NCBI RefSeq assembly: GCF_900476395.1
Contig: NZ_UIHB01000001.1
Location: 1,331,385-1,395,384, forward strand
Source: Xanthomonas euroxanthea
GTDB taxonomy: Bacteria > Pseudomonadota > Gammaproteobacteria > Xanthomonadales > Xanthomonadaceae
Reading direction: 5' to 3'
DNA length: 64,000 bases
The notes beneath the pieces were generated by a model. That model had not been told where the DNA came from, searched no databases, and saw nothing but the letters and a program-made list of their open reading frames with translations. Shown in pieces: positions 1-11,860 of the stretch. Numbering within the stretch: position 1 is the stretch's first letter; every line of letters starts with the position of its first letter. A program made the translations under genes and the position numbers.

Positions 1-710
1 TCGCCGCCAAGGCCGAAGGCCGCGACCCGCTGCACGCTGCCATGACCGCCATCAGCGGCAAATCCGATGCCGAACTCGACGCCCTGCCCACCGAACAATT
101 CACTTCCCTCGCCGCCACCGCCGCGCTGTTCCCGGATGAGACTGAGAACTCAGACCTCGGCGAGATTCCGAAGGGATGGCAGGTCAATAACGTGGGGCGA
201 CTACTGGAGCTGGCCTACGGAAAAGCCCTCAAGGCGATAGATCGCGTTGATGGTCCCATTCCTGTGTACGGCTCGGGTGGCGTGACTGGCTCTCACAGTC
301 AGGCCCTCGTAAGCCATGGATCGGTGATTGTGGGGCGTAAAGGAACCGTAGGGGCGCTCTATTGGGAAGACGGCCCGTTTTTTCCAATCGATACGACGTT
401 CTATGTGCGCCCAATCGCAGCGCCGATGACCTATTGCTTCTATCTCTTGCAGACACTAGGCCTAGACAAGATGAATACCGATGCGGCGGTGCCAGGGCTG
501 AATAGGGATAACGTGTACCGCCTTGAGCATGTACTACCAAGTTCGATAGCCTTGCGGGCGTTCGACTCCATCGTCAGCTTGTTGCGGTCTGCGATTCGGG
601 CTAACACGGATGCGTCGACATCGCTCAGCCAGTTGCGGGACGCGCTTCTTCCCAAGCTCCTTTCCGGCGAACTATATATCGAGAGCGCTGAGGCGGAGGT
701 CGCAGCGTGA
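1..710 (+). CDS. hsdS: Type I restriction-modification specificity subunit HsdS (3' part)
   Basis: The open frame runs in from the left edge (codons begin at base 3), so the start lies outside the window; 235 residues remain. The protein is the DNA-recognition subunit that directs the HsdM2S methylase and the HsdR translocase to the target sequence. The visible part holds a spacer ending in ATAALFPDE, then one complete target-recognition domain opening with GEIPKGWQV, with typical TRD features such as VYGSGGVTG, SVIVGRKGTVG and PIDTTFYVRP. It closes with the conserved coiled-coil and tail SQLRDALLPKLLSGEL. The first TRD and hsdM would lie to the left. The stop overlaps the GTG start of the next gene (GTGA), so the two are translationally coupled. 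Seen: motifs and frame. Inferred: an intact subunit upstream. Confidence 0.9.
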   Translation, partial: AAKAEGRDPLHAAMTAISGKSDAELDALPTEQFTSLAATAALFPDETENSDLGEIPKGWQVNNVGRLLELAYGKALKAIDRVDGPIPVYGSGGVTGSHSQALVSHGSVIVGRKGTVGALYWEDGPFFPIDTTFYVRPIAAPMTYCFYLLQTLGLDKMNTDAAVPGLNRDNVYRLEHVLPSSIALRAFDSIVSLLRSAIRANTDASTSLSQLRDALLPKLLSGELYIESAEAEVAA

Positions 711-1987
711 GCGAGGCCATCGAACCGCTGGTCACTCAAGAGCCCGTAGCAGTCAGCGACTACTTCTCGCAGATTCCGCTCTGGAGCGCGGATGGGAAGA
801 CCAAGTGCTTCGAGGTGATGTCCGACGAAGTGAGTGCGCGTATTCCAGTGACCCGTCTGGACAGCTGGCGCGATTTCACCCAACTGCTGGAAAGCGACTT
901 CTTCAATCGGCCCGGTGTCCAACTGGTGTTCCGCGGTCACCGGCGCTTCGATTGGGGCCTGATGCCAACGCTGGGCCGGGTCACCACCAACGGCATCGTC
1001 ACGGAGACGCTGGCCGACGGTCAGTTTGATCGCTTCAAGCGCGCAGTACGTGGCCGGCTCAACGACACGGCCTTGGTGGACGAGCCCGACGAGTTGTGGT
1101 CCGTAGGCCAGCACCATGGCCTGATGACGCCGTTGCTCGACTGGACCTACTCGCCTTACGTGGCCCTCTTTTTTGCGTTCCAAAAGGAAGACGATAGGGA
1201 CGAAAAGGACAACCCCTACCGCGCGGTGTATGTACTTAACAAGAGCTTTCTTGCCGACAACGAGGCTGAAACCGGCATTCGCGTGTTTGAGCCACGGAAG
1301 GACCACCACGGACGGCTGGTGAATCAGGCCGGTCTGTTTACCTTCTCGCCCTACGACGCGACCTTGGAAAATAAGCTGACCAATGTACTGGCCGATGAGG
1401 AAGGCTTCACCGACGAGGAGCTGCGTTCCGCCTCCGAAGAAGAACAGCCCGAGATCCTTGCGCGCTACATCTGCAAGATCTACATCAAAAACGAGGAGCG
1501 TGACGCCTGCGTGCGCCACTTGCGGCGTATGAACGTGCACCACGCCAGCCTGTTCCCGGACCTGATCGGCGCATCGGACTACTGCAACATCCTCACGGCC
1601 GAGGCCGAGCAGGTAGCCGAGATTGCGCGACAGGCTGCCAAGGCAGCGGATGCGCCGCAGCCAGCCGTCGAGCCTCAGGCGACAGGCTTGGAAGTGCCCG
1701 TCGTTGTCGATGGAGCGCTGCAAAGTATCGAGCAGGTCTTGCGTGCGCCGCTGGAAGCGCAGCACGTGGAGCCAGGCCGTATTCCGTTGATCGCCCAAGA
1801 GTTGGCCAAGGTCATTGCCCTCAATAAGGTTGTCGACTGGGACAAGCGAGAGGCTGTACAAGCGCATATGCGAACGTCCATCCGTGTGCTGTTACGCAAG
1901 TACGGCTATCCGCTCAACGCGCGTGAAGGGGTGCTGGATCAGGTGTTGGCGCTGGCCAAAGTGACTAATGCGGACGGCGGCGCATGA
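707..1987 (+). CDS. FRG-domain protein with an HsdR-like C-terminal module, inside the type I RM operon
   Basis: The 426-residue protein starts at a GTG overlapping the hsdS stop. Residues about 70-160 carry the FRG domain signature: VFRGHRRFDWGLMPTLGR, then QHHGLMTPLLDWTYSPYVAL. FRG domains are widespread in mobile and defence contexts, but their biochemistry is poorly known. The middle is acidic and helical. The last 65 residues or so (IAQELAKV, VVDWDKREAV, LLRKYGYP, VLDQVLALAK) align with the extreme C-terminus of HsdR encoded 3.4 kb downstream (IAIEITEK, TVDWQVRESV, LQKWKYPP, AVELVLRQAE). In HsdR this helical module is thought to dock onto the methylase core. The inference is an accessory effector that binds the same HsdM2S complex. 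The stop overlaps an ATG in another frame and lies inside the next small ORF. Confidence 0.85.
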   Translation: MSEAIEPLVTQEPVAVSDYFSQIPLWSADGKTKCFEVMSDEVSARIPVTRLDSWRDFTQLLESDFFNRPGVQLVFRGHRRFDWGLMPTLGRVTTNGIVTETLADGQFDRFKRAVRGRLNDTALVDEPDELWSVGQHHGLMTPLLDWTYSPYVALFFAFQKEDDRDEKDNPYRAVYVLNKSFLADNEAETGIRVFEPRKDHHGRLVNQAGLFTFSPYDATLENKLTNVLADEEGFTDEELRSASEEEQPEILARYICKIYIKNEERDACVRHLRRMNVHHASLFPDLIGASDYCNILTAEAEQVAEIARQAAKAADAPQPAVEPQATGLEVPVVVDGALQSIEQVLRAPLEAQHVEPGRIPLIAQELAKVIALNKVVDWDKREAVQAHMRTSIRVLLRKYGYPLNAREGVLDQVLALAKVTNADGGA

Positions 1988-2147
1988 CCACCACTCCCAC
2001 GCAAATGAGCGGTTCGGCTTGCCTGAGGGCAGCGGCAACACGGTGTCGCAAATCATCATTGCGACCATGGAGCAGGGGCTGGTGAAAAACGATCCCAACG
2101 CACCGGACTCGCGATGTTATGCGCGCTACATCCGGGCGTGGGCATAG
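1968..2147 (+). CDS. Small conserved-looking protein (59 aa) between the FRG gene and hsdR
   Basis: An ATG at 1968 lies 20 bases before the end of the FRG gene in another frame and opens a 59-codon ORF ending TAG at 2147. The predicted product begins MRTAAHDHHSHANERFGLPE, continues with SGNTVSQIIIATMEQGL and ends RYARYIRAWA-like (CYARYIRAWA). It has a balanced, protein-like composition rather than the arginine/alanine runs of shadow frames. There is no signal peptide or membrane segment. An alternative ORF from the ATGA at 1984 has low-quality composition and is rejected. Its position in a run of overlapping genes between hsdS and hsdR suggests an accessory part of the same restriction locus. 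I do not recognise a named family, and the function is unknown. Confidence 0.5.
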   Translation: MRTAAHDHHSHANERFGLPEGSGNTVSQIIIATMEQGLVKNDPNAPDSRCYARYIRAWA

Positions 2148-2171
2148 CCGCCATTTCATGGCAAACCAGAT

Positions 2172-2210
2172 TGGCCTCTCGTGGCCGAGCAAGTCATTTT
2201 TTTTTAAGTT
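2172..2210 (+). terminator. Possible weak terminator before hsdR
   Basis: A short GGCC/GGCC stem around 2172-2186 is followed after about 15 bases by a run of nine T residues near 2199-2207. It lies between the small ORF and hsdR. The stem is poor, so this may instead be an AT-rich promoter region for hsdR. Confidence 0.25.
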
Positions 2211-2274
2211 TTCTTATTTCATCGCAAGCCGGGTCGCTCGCTAGAGGGCCTTGGAGGCGCGCAGAGGTTCCAAC

Positions 2275-5200
2275 ATGCTGAATGAACAACAACTCGAAGA
2301 CCTCTGCCTAGGCTGGTTCCAGGAGTCCGGTTGGCAGTTCGCGCATGGTCCGGATATCGCGCCTGACAGCAATGTGCCCGAGCGCACAGACTACCGCCAA
2401 GTGGTGCTGCGCGGGAGGCTGCTCAGCGCGCTTGCCCGCATCAACCCGATGATCCCTCCCATGGCATTGGAGCAGGCTGCGGATGCGTTGACTGTCGTGA
2501 GCGAGCCGCAGCTGGTGTTGCGCAACCGCTACGTGCATGGCCTTCTTTTGAATGGCATGACGGTGGAGTTCGCACAGGGCGATGAGAAGAAGACCGACCT
2601 GGTGCGGTTCATCGACTTCGCGCAAGCCAGCAACAACGATTTTCTGGTGGTGAGCCAGTTCACCATTGCTGGCACCAAAAAGCCGCGCCGCCCCGATGTG
2701 GCTGCCTTCGTCAACGGTTTGCCGCTAGCCGTGGTGGAGCTGAAGAATCCCGCCAATGCGCAAACGGATGTGTGGGACGCCTTCAACCAGTTGCAGACCT
2801 ACAAGGACGAGATCGGCGACCTGTTCAACAGTAACGTCGCCCTGGTGGTAAGCGATGGCTGGACGGCCCGCGTGGGCTCGCTGACCGCAAACGCCGAGCG
2901 CATGCTGCCGTGGCGTACCATCGCCAACGAAGACGACCGGCCGCGCCTGCAGATGGAGCTGGAGACTGTGGTGCGGGGCTTTTTCAGGCCGGAACTGTTT
3001 CTGGACTACGTGCAGCACTTCGTGCTGTTTGAGCAGGATGGGGACAGCCTTACCAAGAAAATTGCGGGGTACCACCAGTTCCACGCGGTGCGCGAGGCGG
3101 TGCGCGTCACGGTTATTGCGGCTCAAGACGCTGGAGGAGGCATGCTGAAGGTGCATGAAGAACGTGCCAGCTATGGCAAAGAGGTCAGGCCGGGTTCGCG
3201 TAAGGCGGGCGTCGTTTGGCACACGCAAGGCTCGGGCAAGAGCATCACCATGGTGTGCTATGCCGGCAAGTTGCTGCAGCAGCCCGAGATGAAGAATCCG
3301 ACCCTGGTGGTGGTGACCGACCGCAACGACCTGGATGGCCAACTATTCGCCACCTTCAGTGCCGCCAGTGATCTGCTCAAGACCACTCCTGTGCAGGCTG
3401 GCGGCCGCGACGAGTTGCGCGAGATGCTGGCCACGCGCGAGGCGGGCGGCATCATCTTTACCACGGTGCAGAAGTTCGCCTTGCAGGAGGGGGAGCAGGC
3501 TCACCCGCTGCTTTCTGACCGCACCAACATCGTGGTGATCTCGGATGAAGCGCACCGCAGTCAGTACGGGATCAAGGCGCACCTGGATACCAAAACAGGC
3601 GAGTACGTGTATGGGTACGCCAAGCACCTGCGCGATTCGCTGAAGAATGCCACCTTCATCGGTTTCACCGGGACACCGATTGCGTTGGAGGATAAAAACA
3701 CCCGGGCGGTGTTTGGCGATTACGTCAGCATCTACGACATCCAAGACGCCGTGGACGATGGTGCGACGGTGCCTATCTTCTATGAGAGCCGCTTGGCCAA
3801 GCTGGACGTGAACCAGACAGAGATCGATGCGCTTAACGCGCAGGTTGATGAAGTCGTCGAGGACGAGGAGGACATTGCCAGCCGCGAAAGGACCAAGAGC
3901 GAATGGGCAACGCTGGAAAAGCTGGTGGGCGCCGAGCCGCGTTTGCAGCAGGTAGCTAAAGACTTGGTGCAGCATTTCGACGCGCGCATCAGCACCATTG
4001 ACGGCAAGGCCATGATCGTCTGTATGAGCCGCGAAATTTGCGTGCAGCTCTACAATGCCATCTGCGTGGGTGACGAAAACAACCCGCCCTTGCGCCCCGA
4101 CTGGCACAGTACCGATCCGGAACTGGGGGCCATTAAAATCGTGATGACCGGCTCAGCTGCCGACAAGGCGTCTTTGCAGCCGCATATCTACACCAACAAA
4201 GTGAAGAAGCGCCTGGAGAAGCGCTTCAAAGATCCGGCTGACACGCTGAAGCTGGTGATCGTACGCGATATGTGGCTGACGGGATTTGACGCGCCATGCT
4301 GCCATACCATGTATATCGACAAGCCCATGAAGGGGCACAACCTGATGCAGGCGATTGCCCGCGTCAACCGCGTGTTCAAGAACAAGCCCGGTGGACTGGT
4401 GGTGGATTACATCGGGATTGCCAATGAGCTGAAGTCCGCGCTCAAGACCTATACCGATGCCAAGGGCAAGGGCGACCCCACTCACAACACGACCGAAGCG
4501 CTGGCGGTGCTGCTCGAAAAGATGGACATCGTGCGCGGCATGATGCATGGGTTCGACTACAGCGCCTTTGAGACGCAAGCTGTGCAACTGCTGGTGCCGG
4601 CCGCCAACCATATCCTGGGGTTGAAGGACGGCAAGACCCGCTTCATCGACACGATGCTGGCCGTTGCCAAAGCATTTTCGCTGTGTGGAACGCTGGACGA
4701 GGCGGGTGCGCTGCGCAAGGAAATCGCTTTCTTCTCTGCCATCAAGGCAGCTATCGCGAAGTTCACCACTGTGGACAAGAAGCGCACCGATGCCGAAAAA
4801 AACAGTGCTCTCAAGCAGATTCTGGATAACGCCATCTTCTCGGACGGTGTGGCGGACGTGTTTGCGTTGGCGGGGCTGGATAAGCCGAACATCGGCCTGC
4901 TCTCAGACGAGTTCCTGGACGACGTACGCCGGATGGAGAGCCGCAATCTGGCTGTGGAGTTGCTGGAGAAGCTACTGCGCGATGAGATCAGGGCGCGGGC
5001 CAGCAACAACGTGGTGCAGGAGAAGAAGTACGGTGATCGCTTGCTTGAGGCTCTGCGTAAGTATCACAACCGCGCGATTGAAACCGCCCAAGTCATCGAA
5101 GAGTTGATCCAGATGGCCAAGGAGTTTCAGGCCGCCTTGGCACGAGACGCGTCACTTGGGCTGGCGCCAGATGAGATCGCCTTCTACGACGCGCTGGCCA

Positions 5201-5445
5201 ACAACGAAAGCGCGGTACGGGAGCTTGGCGATGAGGTGCTGAAGAAAATCGCCATCGAGATCACCGAGAAGCTGCGCGCCGCCACCACAGTGGATTGGCA
5301 GGTGCGCGAGAGCGTTCGTGCACGATTGCGCATTCTGGTGCGGCGATGCCTGCAGAAGTGGAAGTATCCTCCAGATAAGCAATTAGAAGCCGTAGAGCTT
5401 GTACTGCGTCAAGCCGAAAAGTTATCGGGTGCGTGGTCAAAGTAG
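2275..5445 (+). CDS. hsdR: Type I restriction endonuclease subunit HsdR
   Basis: The 1056-residue motor and nuclease subunit uses ATP to translocate unmodified DNA and then cuts it. I chose ATG 2275 because AGAGG at 2263-2267 is well spaced; an in-frame TTG at 2251 is possible. A PD-(D/E)XK nuclease comes first (RRPDVAAF, then VVELKNP with Glu155 and Lys157). The SF2 translocase follows: Walker A HTQGSGKSITM near residue 319, DEAH box VVISDEAHRSQYG near 424, motif III GFTGTPI near 465, and DMWLTGFDAP with QAIARVNRVF later. A helical C-terminal region ends in the VDWQVRESV module shared with the FRG protein. All key motifs look intact and the length is normal for the family. hsdS, the FRG gene and a small ORF lie immediately upstream. 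Confidence 0.95.
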   Translation: MLNEQQLEDLCLGWFQESGWQFAHGPDIAPDSNVPERTDYRQVVLRGRLLSALARINPMIPPMALEQAADALTVVSEPQLVLRNRYVHGLLLNGMTVEFAQGDEKKTDLVRFIDFAQASNNDFLVVSQFTIAGTKKPRRPDVAAFVNGLPLAVVELKNPANAQTDVWDAFNQLQTYKDEIGDLFNSNVALVVSDGWTARVGSLTANAERMLPWRTIANEDDRPRLQMELETVVRGFFRPELFLDYVQHFVLFEQDGDSLTKKIAGYHQFHAVREAVRVTVIAAQDAGGGMLKVHEERASYGKEVRPGSRKAGVVWHTQGSGKSITMVCYAGKLLQQPEMKNPTLVVVTDRNDLDGQLFATFSAASDLLKTTPVQAGGRDELREMLATREAGGIIFTTVQKFALQEGEQAHPLLSDRTNIVVISDEAHRSQYGIKAHLDTKTGEYVYGYAKHLRDSLKNATFIGFTGTPIALEDKNTRAVFGDYVSIYDIQDAVDDGATVPIFYESRLAKLDVNQTEIDALNAQVDEVVEDEEDIASRERTKSEWATLEKLVGAEPRLQQVAKDLVQHFDARISTIDGKAMIVCMSREICVQLYNAICVGDENNPPLRPDWHSTDPELGAIKIVMTGSAADKASLQPHIYTNKVKKRLEKRFKDPADTLKLVIVRDMWLTGFDAPCCHTMYIDKPMKGHNLMQAIARVNRVFKNKPGGLVVDYIGIANELKSALKTYTDAKGKGDPTHNTTEALAVLLEKMDIVRGMMHGFDYSAFETQAVQLLVPAANHILGLKDGKTRFIDTMLAVAKAFSLCGTLDEAGALRKEIAFFSAIKAAIAKFTTVDKKRTDAEKNSALKQILDNAIFSDGVADVFALAGLDKPNIGLLSDEFLDDVRRMESRNLAVELLEKLLRDEIRARASNNVVQEKKYGDRLLEALRKYHNRAIETAQVIEELIQMAKEFQAALARDASLGLAPDEIAFYDALANNESAVRELGDEVLKKIAIEITEKLRAATTVDWQVRESVRARLRILVRRCLQKWKYPPDKQLEAVELVLRQAEKLSGAWSK

Positions 5446-9956: not shown

Positions 9957-11567
9957 GTGAAGCGAACGATTGCGTGGTCGATGGTGGGGGTTCTGGGGAT
10001 TTGGGGTGCTGCGACTGAAACGGTGTTGGCATCTGCATCTGCATCTGCAACAGCAGCAACAGCAACAGCAGCAATAGCAACAGCAGCAACAGCAGCAACG
10101 CCGATTCCGATGCCGGCATCGACGGCACCGTCTGCATCCACGCCCGCATCGACGGCGGTAGACGCTGCGGTTGCGGGTGCTGCTGCTCCGCCAGCAGGAC
10201 CCGCCGGCGCACTACGCGTCTACACCACCGCCCAGGGCGCAACGCAGCAGATGCGCGCCAGCACTGCCGAGGCGCCCAAGACCGGGCATGCGTTGACCGA
10301 GAAGGAGAACTCCATCTTCGTCAATCCGCAACGCCGCTTTCAGGAAGTGCTGGGCATTGGCGGGGCGATCACCGATGCCAGTGCCGAGACCTTTGCCAGG
10401 CTGCCCAAGCCTGCGCAGCGCGCCTTGCTCACTGCCTACTACGACCCGCAAAAAGGCATCGGCTATACGCTGGCGCGCACCACCATCCACAGCTCGGACT
10501 TCAGCAGCGGCAGCTACACCTACATCAAGGACGGCGATGCGGCGCTGAAGAGCTTTTCGGTCAGGCACGATGAGCGTTATCGCATTCCGATGCTGCGCCA
10601 GGCCATCGCGGCGGCCGGCGGCACATTGACGACATTTGCCAGCCCGTGGAGCGCGCCGGCCTTCATGAAAGACAGCAACAACATGCTCAAGGGCGGCAAG
10701 CTGCTGCCCGCGTATGCGCAGGCCTGGGCCACCTACTACACGCGCTTCATTGCGGCCTACGAAAAGGCCGGCATCCCGATCTGGGGCATCAGCCTGCAGA
10801 ACGAGCCGATGGCGGTACAGACCTGGGAGTCGATGGTGTTTTCCGCCGAGGAAGAGCGCGACTTTCTGAAAAATCATCTTGGTCCGACGATGGAGCAGGC
10901 GGGCTATGGCGACCGCAAGATCATCGTATGGGATCACAACCGCGACATGATGCTGCACCGCGCGCACGTGATCTTCGACGACCCGGACGCGGCGAAATAC
11001 GCGTGGGGCATGGGCTTCCACTGGTACGAGACCTGGGCCGGGTTCGCGCCGATGGTGGAGAACGTGGCGGCGGTGGCGCAGGCGTACCCGGACAAGCCGC
11101 TGTTGCTGACCGAAGCGGCGGTGGAAAAGTTCGACCCGGCAAAGCTGCAGCATTGGCCCAACGGCGAGCGCTATGGCACCGCCATCATCAACGACCTCAA
11201 TCATGGGGCGGTGGGCTGGACGGACTGGAACATCCTGCTCGACGAACATGGCGGGCCGAACCATGTGGGCAACTACTGCTTTGCGCCGGTGCATGCCGAT
11301 ACACGCACCGGCGAGGTGATCTACACGCCGAGCTATTGGTATATCGGCCACTTTTCCAAGTTCATCCGCCCCGGTGCGCGGCGGGTGAGTGCGGCCAGCA
11401 GCCGCAGCAATCTGGCAACGACGTCCTTTCTCAATACCGATGGCAGCCTGGCGACGGTGGTGATGAATGCCAGCGATGTGGCGATCCGTTACAACCTGTA
11501 CGTGGGCGCCGCGTCCAGTGAGTTGGAGATCCCGGCGCATGCGATCCAGACTGTGGTGATGCAGTAA
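9957..11567 (+). CDS. Glycoside hydrolase family 30 (glucosylceramidase-like), secreted
   Basis: The 536-residue protein starts at GTG 9957, supported by GGGAGGG at 9944-9950; an upstream open frame lacks protein character. A signal peptide (MKRTIAWSMVGVLGIWGAA) is followed by a low-complexity Ala/Thr/Ser linker to about residue 85, encoded by CAG/GCA-rich trinucleotide repeats. The GH30 domain starts near FQEVLGIGGAITDASAETFA. The acid/base Glu283 lies in SLQNEPMAVQTWESM and the nucleophile Glu386 in LLLTEAAVEKFD. A C-terminal beta domain follows (RPGARRVSAASS, TDGSLATVVMNASD). The family cleaves beta-glucosides, beta-xylosides or related bonds; the exact substrate is not visible. Palindromic repeats flank the gene on both sides. 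It would act in the periplasm or outside the cell. Confidence 0.9.
   Translation: MKRTIAWSMVGVLGIWGAATETVLASASASATAATATAAIATAATAATPIPMPASTAPSASTPASTAVDAAVAGAAAPPAGPAGALRVYTTAQGATQQMRASTAEAPKTGHALTEKENSIFVNPQRRFQEVLGIGGAITDASAETFARLPKPAQRALLTAYYDPQKGIGYTLARTTIHSSDFSSGSYTYIKDGDAALKSFSVRHDERYRIPMLRQAIAAAGGTLTTFASPWSAPAFMKDSNNMLKGGKLLPAYAQAWATYYTRFIAAYEKAGIPIWGISLQNEPMAVQTWESMVFSAEEERDFLKNHLGPTMEQAGYGDRKIIVWDHNRDMMLHRAHVIFDDPDAAKYAWGMGFHWYETWAGFAPMVENVAAVAQAYPDKPLLLTEAAVEKFDPAKLQHWPNGERYGTAIINDLNHGAVGWTDWNILLDEHGGPNHVGNYCFAPVHADTRTGEVIYTPSYWYIGHFSKFIRPGARRVSAASSRSNLATTSFLNTDGSLATVVMNASDVAIRYNLYVGAASSELEIPAHAIQTVVMQ
10026..10104 (+). repeat. Trinucleotide-rich low-complexity tract (GCA/CAG/ATC units)
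   Basis: Runs of GCATCT and then GCAACA/GCAGCA units encode an Ala-Ser then Ala-Thr linker just after the signal peptide of the GH30 enzyme. The units stay in frame, so slippage would change linker length without a frameshift. Confidence 0.75.
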
Positions 11568-11604
11568 GCGCGGACCGTGGGCTGGGTGTTGGTGGGAGAT
11601 TGCG

Positions 11605-11650
11605 TACCCTCATCCGCCCTTCGGGCACCTTCTCCCGGGGGGAGAAGGGG
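11605..11650 (+). repeat. REP-like palindromic repeat, copy 3
   Basis: It starts TACCCTCATCCG and holds GCCC-TTC-GGGC and CTTCTCCC/GGGAGAAG stems, matching copy 2 nearly base for base. It lies 37 bp after the GH30 stop, so the gene sits between repeat copies. Confidence 0.75.
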
Positions 11651-11785
11651 GAGCTTACGGGTGCTCGTAGCCAGCGTTGCGTCGCCGGTTTAACCATCGT
11701 GCGTGTACGTCCCGCCGATGCGTCACCCGTCGATACCGTTGCCGGTACCAAGAACGCCACCGAAGAGACGCCGTCAAAGAAACCC

Positions 11786-11860
11786 GCCGAAGAAACGCCC
11801 GCCGAAGAAACGCCCGCCGAAGAAACGCCCGCCGAAGAAACGCCCGCCGAAGAAACGCCC
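11786..11860 (+). repeat. Perfect 15-bp tandem repeat, 5 copies
   Basis: GCCGAAGAAACGCCC is repeated five times without change, with degenerate copies just upstream (11757-11785). The unit is a multiple of three, so all frames stay open and produce pentapeptide arrays, but no frame has a credible gene around it. It lies in the 365-bp gap 11568-11932, which otherwise holds REP copy 3 and the hairpin at 11861. Confidence 0.85.

Follow-up and report, generated by a model that had tools for sequence, protein, structure and literature searches.

Why should a protein with an FRG domain, encoded inside a type I restriction-modification locus, end in the same way as the restriction subunit of that locus? 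The question is raised by the first genes of a 64,000-nucleotide stretch of the Xanthomonas euroxanthea genome (contig NZ_UIHB01000001.1, positions 1,331,385 to 1,395,384; this whole stretch is referred to as the window), in which a gene for an FRG protein is lodged between hsdS and hsdR (Table 1). An original prediction, made from the letters of the DNA, had noted that the last 65 or so residues of the two proteins can be aligned with each other. Our analysis confirmed this similarity: as judged by sequence comparison, the final approximately 65 residues of the FRG protein and the extreme C-terminus of HsdR are homologous.

The C-terminal tail common to the FRG protein and HsdR

Two Pfam families were found in the FRG protein. 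One is the FRG domain (PF08867), which scores 85.4 bits against a cut-off of 25. The other is T1RH-like_C (PF11867), whose profile positions 261-325 (out of 329) match residues 355-419 of the protein (E 2.9e-14) with 53.6 bits, twice the curated cut-off of 26.8. The neighboring HsdR protein (1064 residues) possesses a nuclease, a motor and a nearly complete T1RH-like_C region; the FRG protein shares the last 65 residues with it, but lacks the nuclease, the motor and the rest of T1RH-like_C. No match to the HSDR_N nuclease or to an SF2 motor was detected by Pfam in the FRG protein at E values up to 10, and none to AAA_13, the family of the ABC-ATPase/anticodon nucleases.

A direct BLASTP comparison of the FRG protein with the HsdR protein encoded next to it yielded 23 identical residues over 60 positions (E 4e-6). 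The profile-profile comparison with HsdR C-termini by which the original prediction was to be judged gave a significant match: when 12 FRG tails were aligned with 16 HsdR proteins by hhalign, a probability of 98.0 (E 2.2e-13) was obtained, and residues ~356-417 of the FRG protein were placed onto residues 994-1055 of HsdR. The tail alignment used for this purpose (A2) comprised 12 of the 16 FRG proteins known at that time (L081, L083, L085, and L088 were left out). An alignment of the whole FRG proteins (16 proteins, 15 of which were used by hhalign) matched HsdR at the same place with a probability of 97 (E 1.1e-10), while a control comparison of the FRG tails with HsdM reached a probability of only 0.4.

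We assembled 19 loci with tail-bearing FRG genes. Besides the window, these are 15 loci fetched by similarity (L074-L088; 48-76% identity, 14 of them on genome contigs and one on a viral contig, with Kosakonia arachidis, L087, and Marinobacter, L082, among the sources), and three added loci: L105 (genome G587), L106 (a plasmid of Rhizobium johnstonii; 31.6% identity), and L180 (genome G685). From 13 HsdR proteins encoded in such loci, a tail profile was built that contained no FRG sequences at all. It recognized the FRG tails of all 19 loci with scores between 10.5 and 46.1 bits, the lowest score belonging to the tail from L088. Among 1900 shuffled tails, 1560 were scored, with a maximum of 6.7 bits. 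FRG proteins encoded elsewhere, in 35 rows that represent 30 distinct proteins, received a score in nine rows, with a maximum of 0.0 bits, and 26 rows remained unscored; the fetch that supplied these rows left out 21 of the 51 FRG matches of our phylum survey, two of which (G614 and G326) were read later. PF11867 itself scored above its cut-off in the distant relative from L180 (29.9 bits) and below it in that from L106 (19.7 bits). The segment is short and helical, and a chance or low-complexity helical similarity would thus be a conceivable source of the match; it was ruled out by the Pfam score above the cut-off, the profile-profile E value, and the shuffle and no-tail controls, and we regard its probability as practically negligible.

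The tails of the two proteins are also predicted to adopt the same three helices. The AlphaFold2 model of the FRG protein, computed from 16 sequences, has a mean predicted local distance difference test score (pLDDT) of 50.9, with most of the FRG domain below 50. Block means of 78-87 were obtained over most of residues 341-420 (62 in residues 371-380), and the model places helices in the tail at residues 358-372, 378-398, and 403-425. In a model of HsdR residues 735-1064 (mean pLDDT 76), helices are found at residues 986-1011, 1020-1036, and 1045-1063, and the alignment offset of 638 residues maps the FRG helices onto those of HsdR. Alignments of EcoR124I with the HsdR protein of the window stop short of the tail. 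In the 16 tail sequences that we compared, L and R are invariant, and D, W, R, Y, and P are near-invariant. The DW, LR, and YP pairs of the FRG tail in the window are D377/W378, L396/R397, and Y401/P402, and HsdR has D1015/W1016, L1034, and Y1039/P1040 at these places.

Tail-bearing FRG genes in type I loci

In the window, the genes of the system are arranged as summarized in Table 1. The complete hsdS gene, whose start lies outside of the window, corresponds to positions 10358-11710 of the fetched locus L002 and encodes 450 amino acids. The gene order of L002 is Mrr-family gene, hsdM, hsdS, FRG, and hsdR, all on a single strand. Judged from homologs, the true start of hsdR is probably the ATG codon at position 2275.

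Table 1. Coordinates of the type I genes, the FRG gene and their subregions in the window.
Feature	Position	Strand	Basis
hsdS, 3' part (specificity subunit)	1..710	+	Pfam Methylase_S; PADLOC Specificity_I
GTGA, overlap of hsdS stop and FRG start	707..710	+	4 bases; sequence
FRG protein, 426 amino acids, GTG start, PADLOC candidate PDC-S15	707..1987	+	open reading frame; Pfam; PDLC04934
FRG domain, residues 72-165	920..1201	+	PF08867, E 5.1e-24
Fast-evolving linker, residues 298-352	1598..1762	+	identity over 11 pairs
HsdR-like C-terminal tail of FRG protein, residues 355-419	1769..1963	+	PF11867; hhalign; AlphaFold2 (three predicted helices)
Gap between FRG gene and hsdR, no gene called	1988..2250	.	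263 bases
hsdR, T1RH/HindI type	2251..5445	+	HSDR_N, SWI2_SNF2, T1RH-like_C (Pfam); TIGR00348
HsdR tail, residues 994-1055, homologous to FRG tail	5230..5415	+	hhalign

The tail-bearing FRG gene is positioned behind hsdS in each of the 19 loci. The stop codon of hsdS and the start codon of the FRG gene overlap by four bases in nine of them, the window included, and the spacing ranges from -29 to 138 bases, with starts that were set mechanically. The original prediction had the FRG gene translationally coupled to hsdS; the GTGA overlap that prompted this idea is plainly present, and from it we infer the coupling itself. An hsdM gene is found upstream in 17 loci (the contigs of L074 and L080 begin shortly before hsdS), and hsdR follows downstream in 18 (the contig of L083 ends first); hsdR is cut by the end of the contig before its tail in L077 and is split into two frames in L086. 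Viewed as a slot, the interval between hsdS and hsdR holds a gene in the window and in 18 of the 19 loci.

In 12 of the 19 loci, one or more extra genes are inserted between the FRG gene and hsdR. Four such intervening genes were inspected with Pfam, which assigned them to Abi_2, RhuM-Fic, and TIR, with one lacking a match above the cut-off. In L074-L088 this interval has the appearance of a variable second cargo slot, in which possible nucleotidyltransferase/antitoxin pairs can be seen by eye; frames other than those of the FRG protein and HsdR gave no tail match in these loci. The corresponding gap of the window perhaps contains a gene remnant.

Is the tail exclusive to HsdR and such FRG proteins? 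Our phylum survey of 398 genomes counted 51 FRG matches (in 45 genomes), and a search with the FRG-tail alignment detected tails in 58 genomes. In this survey, frames of more than 1000 amino acids were counted as HsdR by their length alone. Of the 18 matches located in shorter frames, two belong to FRG proteins encoded in the slot, those of the window and of G587. Fifteen of the other 16 were fetched: 14 were read as HsdR ends, broken frames or remnants, and one (L151) yielded nothing on re-scanning. The sixteenth, in G633, covers 24 positions of a 529-amino-acid frame (E 0.0054). With this weak match set aside, the only carriers of the tail other than HsdR that we recognized in the 398 genomes by sequence comparison are the two FRG proteins. 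Likewise, the PADLOC model PDLC04934 was matched nearly end to end in two of 200 genomes of the order (the window and G685), in both cases within an hsd locus.

A Pfam survey of 274 genomes of the class, in which 11 regions were fetched from among the partial matches, added one further carrier, L067. In this locus, a 220-amino-acid frame (L067:915-1577) directly behind hsdR carries an HsdR-type tail at its N-terminus (residues 19-88; Pfam E 3.8e-7). The remainder of the frame resembles AAA-family ATPases, two of which are encoded beside mcrC, and we call it McrB-like from this mcrC neighborhood of its relatives; the gene looks broken downstream. The ATPase-like part is presumably what goes under the name EVE. 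We read the other fetched regions as HsdR pieces, contig ends or remnants (L063, L066, and L071 being putative remnants). In L064, a stand-alone frame of 76 amino acids (L064:7035-7265) upstream of hsdM is nearly identical to the HsdR tail of the same locus and may be a remnant or a small regulator. A Proteus mirabilis AAA ATPase that tblastn had joined to a tail (H52) was dismissed, since it consists of hsdR and a separate gene without a tail. In a Proteus mirabilis locus (pR997; L152:5830-6984), the slot has yet another occupant: a BstXI-family restriction gene is annotated between hsdS and hsdR, and genes for an AAA ATPase and mcrC follow behind hsdR.

These distributions bear on the proposal that the tail is a regulatory tag taken over from HsdR, for example a signal for proteolysis or a helical hairpin that binds nucleic acids, with no relation to the assembly of the enzyme. 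The module is indeed short and terminal, and ClpXP degrades the HsdR subunits of type IA and IB enzymes (PMC12707154; what we state about this and the other articles cited by PMC number derives from excerpts of them). Outside of HsdR, however, we recognized the tail solely in the neighborhood of hsd genes that belong to the matching family. This counts against a general tag, which would not require hsd neighbors, and we therefore consider this proposal quite unlikely. An FRG protein encoded beside, but outside of, a T1RH locus (L155) has no tail.

Conservation and history of the tail

Regional divergence was followed in 11 pairs drawn from 17 FRG proteins; dS, the synonymous divergence, was saturated in many of them. 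Over these pairs, the globular part retains 71-85% identity, as against 37-69% for the tail and 23-63% for the linker that precedes it. Measured by identity, conservation of the tail surpasses that of the linker in all 11 pairs; measured by nonsynonymous divergence (dN), it does so in 10 of the 11. We read this pattern as that of a kept unit on a free tether.

A tree of the tails, computed for 18 of the 19 FRG tails (L083 was left out, its tail being that of L082) from a short alignment and with many weak nodes, collects the HsdR tails in one group with an ultrafast bootstrap (UFBoot) support of 61, or of 96 once the divergent FRG tail of L180 is included. The other FRG tails fall outside of the HsdR group, and the L067 tail is placed weakly (53) among those of the FRG proteins. 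This grouping speaks against a recent exchange within the loci, so that recent gene conversion between hsdR and the FRG gene is unsupported, with the reservation that the nodes are weak. Distances between FRG proteins track those of HsdM (rho 0.62) and of HsdR (rho 0.63; p 0.002 each) in a Mantel test of 14 of the 19 loci (L074, L077, L080, L083, and L086 were left out because hsdM or hsdR is missing or broken); the correlation between HsdR and HsdM is tighter (rho 0.87).

At the chromosomal site itself, two genomes of the same genus with shared flanks (L205 and L206) contain no match to PDLC04934 and harbor other sets of defense genes. In L205, a type I system of another family is present, and the adjoining Mrr-family gene is kept at 94% identity; the gene set of L206 is without hsd matches, and we take it to be type III-like. 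The site resembles a hot spot for defense genes, where the FRG gene is apparently gained and lost along with its hsd set. Farther along the window (positions 11700-11860), a repeat encodes, in one of its frames, consecutive PAEET-like units.

A second effector for the recognition complex?

The original prediction had cast the FRG protein as a second effector that docks on the HsdM2S recognition complex, in place of HsdR or beside it, and that provides the restriction system with a non-nuclease output. This interpretation is borne out in part: the conserved module is shared, the gene stands behind hsdS throughout the 19 loci, and its divergence tracks that of the hsd genes. Docking is the step that we infer. 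In excerpts of the literature on EcoR124I, the helical end of HsdR is only "thought to be" or "proposed" to be in contact with the methylase. Guided by the shared sequence, we hold it to be fairly probable that the tail docks on the methylase core.

Several observations weigh against this reading. Fifteen of the 19 loci were retrieved with the whole protein of the window, one search peptide lying inside the tail; sharing of the tail is thus partly built into this set and does not count as independent evidence for these loci. The FRG tails retain the DW, A, LR, and YP core without the PPD and QAE ends of HsdR, and the L088 tail is also devoid of the DW motif. By sequence, no solved protein chain matches the tail, and a fold search with the model of the HsdR C-terminus gave no meaningful match in the Protein Data Bank. 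dN/dS could be compared in three of the 11 pairs only; in two of these the tail exceeds the linker, the largest tail value being 0.37. The original prediction had also called for a survey of FRG genes in type I loci; the tail is present in the 19 loci of the T1RH family but missing from the FRG proteins of L099-L101, three type I loci with another HsdR family. No tail is attached to a PrrC/RloC-like AAA_13 protein encoded between hsdS and a T1RH-type hsdR either (L193:5242-7566; genome G006). An embedded position hence does not need a tail, and a general rule that embedded genes carry one was rejected on account of these cases and of the tail-less genes that intervene between FRG and hsdR. L194 displays an AAA_13 arrangement like that of L193, with another HsdR family.

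The same dN/dS values, and the fact that other genes, including the AAA_13 gene of L193, share such loci without having a tail, would suit a different history, in which the FRG gene is an independent defense gene that travels with the hsd operon, and its tail a functionless remnant of a fusion to hsdR. Yet the identity of the tail has been kept over a wide divergence at which the adjoining linker has lost it, and invariant and near-invariant residues are found in the 16 tail sequences; we judge this history distinctly improbable.

What might a docked FRG protein do? The FRG domain has been assigned to the ADP-ribosyltransferase (ART) superfamily, with a possible function as an NADase (PMC9503650), and it is because of this assignment that a non-nuclease output of the restriction system is plausible. 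The FRG protein is a probable cell-shutdown protein. In the scheme that we envisage, its tail would bind the site on HsdM2S used by HsdR's own tail and would thereby keep the protein tethered to the recognition complex, where it would lie latent next to HsdR or else substitute for HsdR. Disturbance of the complex by a phage antirestriction factor, or blocked restriction, would be the trigger upon which the FRG protein, in line with its published assignment to the ART superfamily, would use up NAD+ or modify a target in the host.

We favor such a guard role since PrrC, an anticodon nuclease, is the closest working model for it. The EcoprrI locus (type IC) has the gene order hsdM-hsdS-prrC-hsdR and thus the same slot, and PrrC co-precipitates with the restriction-modification proteins (PMC3014915); within the complex it stays silent until the phage peptide Stp activates it (PMC3014915, PMC2610378). 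A latent effector other than a DNase, tied to a type I complex, is precisely the role proposed here for the FRG protein. The effector parts differ, however: PrrC combines an ABC-ATPase with a nuclease where the protein of the window has an FRG domain, and the FRG protein has an HsdR-type tail that the PrrC-like AAA_13 protein of L193 in a T1RH slot lacks. For the full model, in which a latent ART effector is tethered to the restriction complex and guards it in the manner of PrrC, we put the chances at slightly short of even.

Instead of docking on the methylase core, the tail could serve self-association or contacts between restriction subunits, so that the FRG tail would pair with HsdR, or with itself, and sense HsdR directly. 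The presence of one module on two proteins of a single locus would fit this idea, as would the precipitation of HsdR by an antiserum against PrrC (PMC3014915). We saw no sign of self-association of the tail in this analysis, and the contact of the R subunits with the M2S core is described as running through the M subunits (PMC3874165), which makes pairing of this type unlikely in our view.

Docking on the recognition core can also be set against what has been described for related systems. PDLC04934 is the model of the PADLOC candidate PDC-S15, and the FRG protein of the window matches it nearly end to end, with the tail included (residues 16-419 onto positions 6-410 of 416; E 6.7e-177). PDC-S15 is described as still uncharacterized (PMC12482510), and no statement on an HsdR tail was found in the excerpts of that article. 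In the type I locus of the Vibrio cholerae island VPI-2, the defense genes for TgvAB are likewise embedded (PMC11411939); TgvAB differs in being a modification-dependent type IV restriction system, and the excerpts of the report do not mention a shared tail. No paper in the open-access literature that we searched uses the words FRG and HsdR together, although the shared tail may have been noticed elsewhere before. Genes embedded in type I loci are already known.

Work on the coupling of embedded effectors to type I enzymes has centered on PrrC, and it left the contact surface undefined, as far as excerpts of this literature tell. The shared tail suggests that the FRG protein and HsdR plug into one DNA-recognizing complex. 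A wider reading, possible although doubtful, is that type I recognition cores are a platform for interchangeable plug-in effectors that bear the HsdR C-terminal tail and use the berth of HsdR on HsdM2S. If this were true, complexes loaded with FRG would respond directly, through NAD+ or ADP-ribosylation, when unmodified DNA is recognized or when HsdR is lost to phage inhibitors, and the N-terminal tail on the McrB-like ATPase fragment of L067, a single and broken example, would make a second plug-in of that fragment. For the one HsdR family concerned, the coupling can be tested directly, residue by residue, on a module of 65 residues that HsdR has in common with a second effector, and the tail could be used as a search handle for further effectors. 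Such a module would also account for the inheritance of a probable ART effector together with one family of type I systems.

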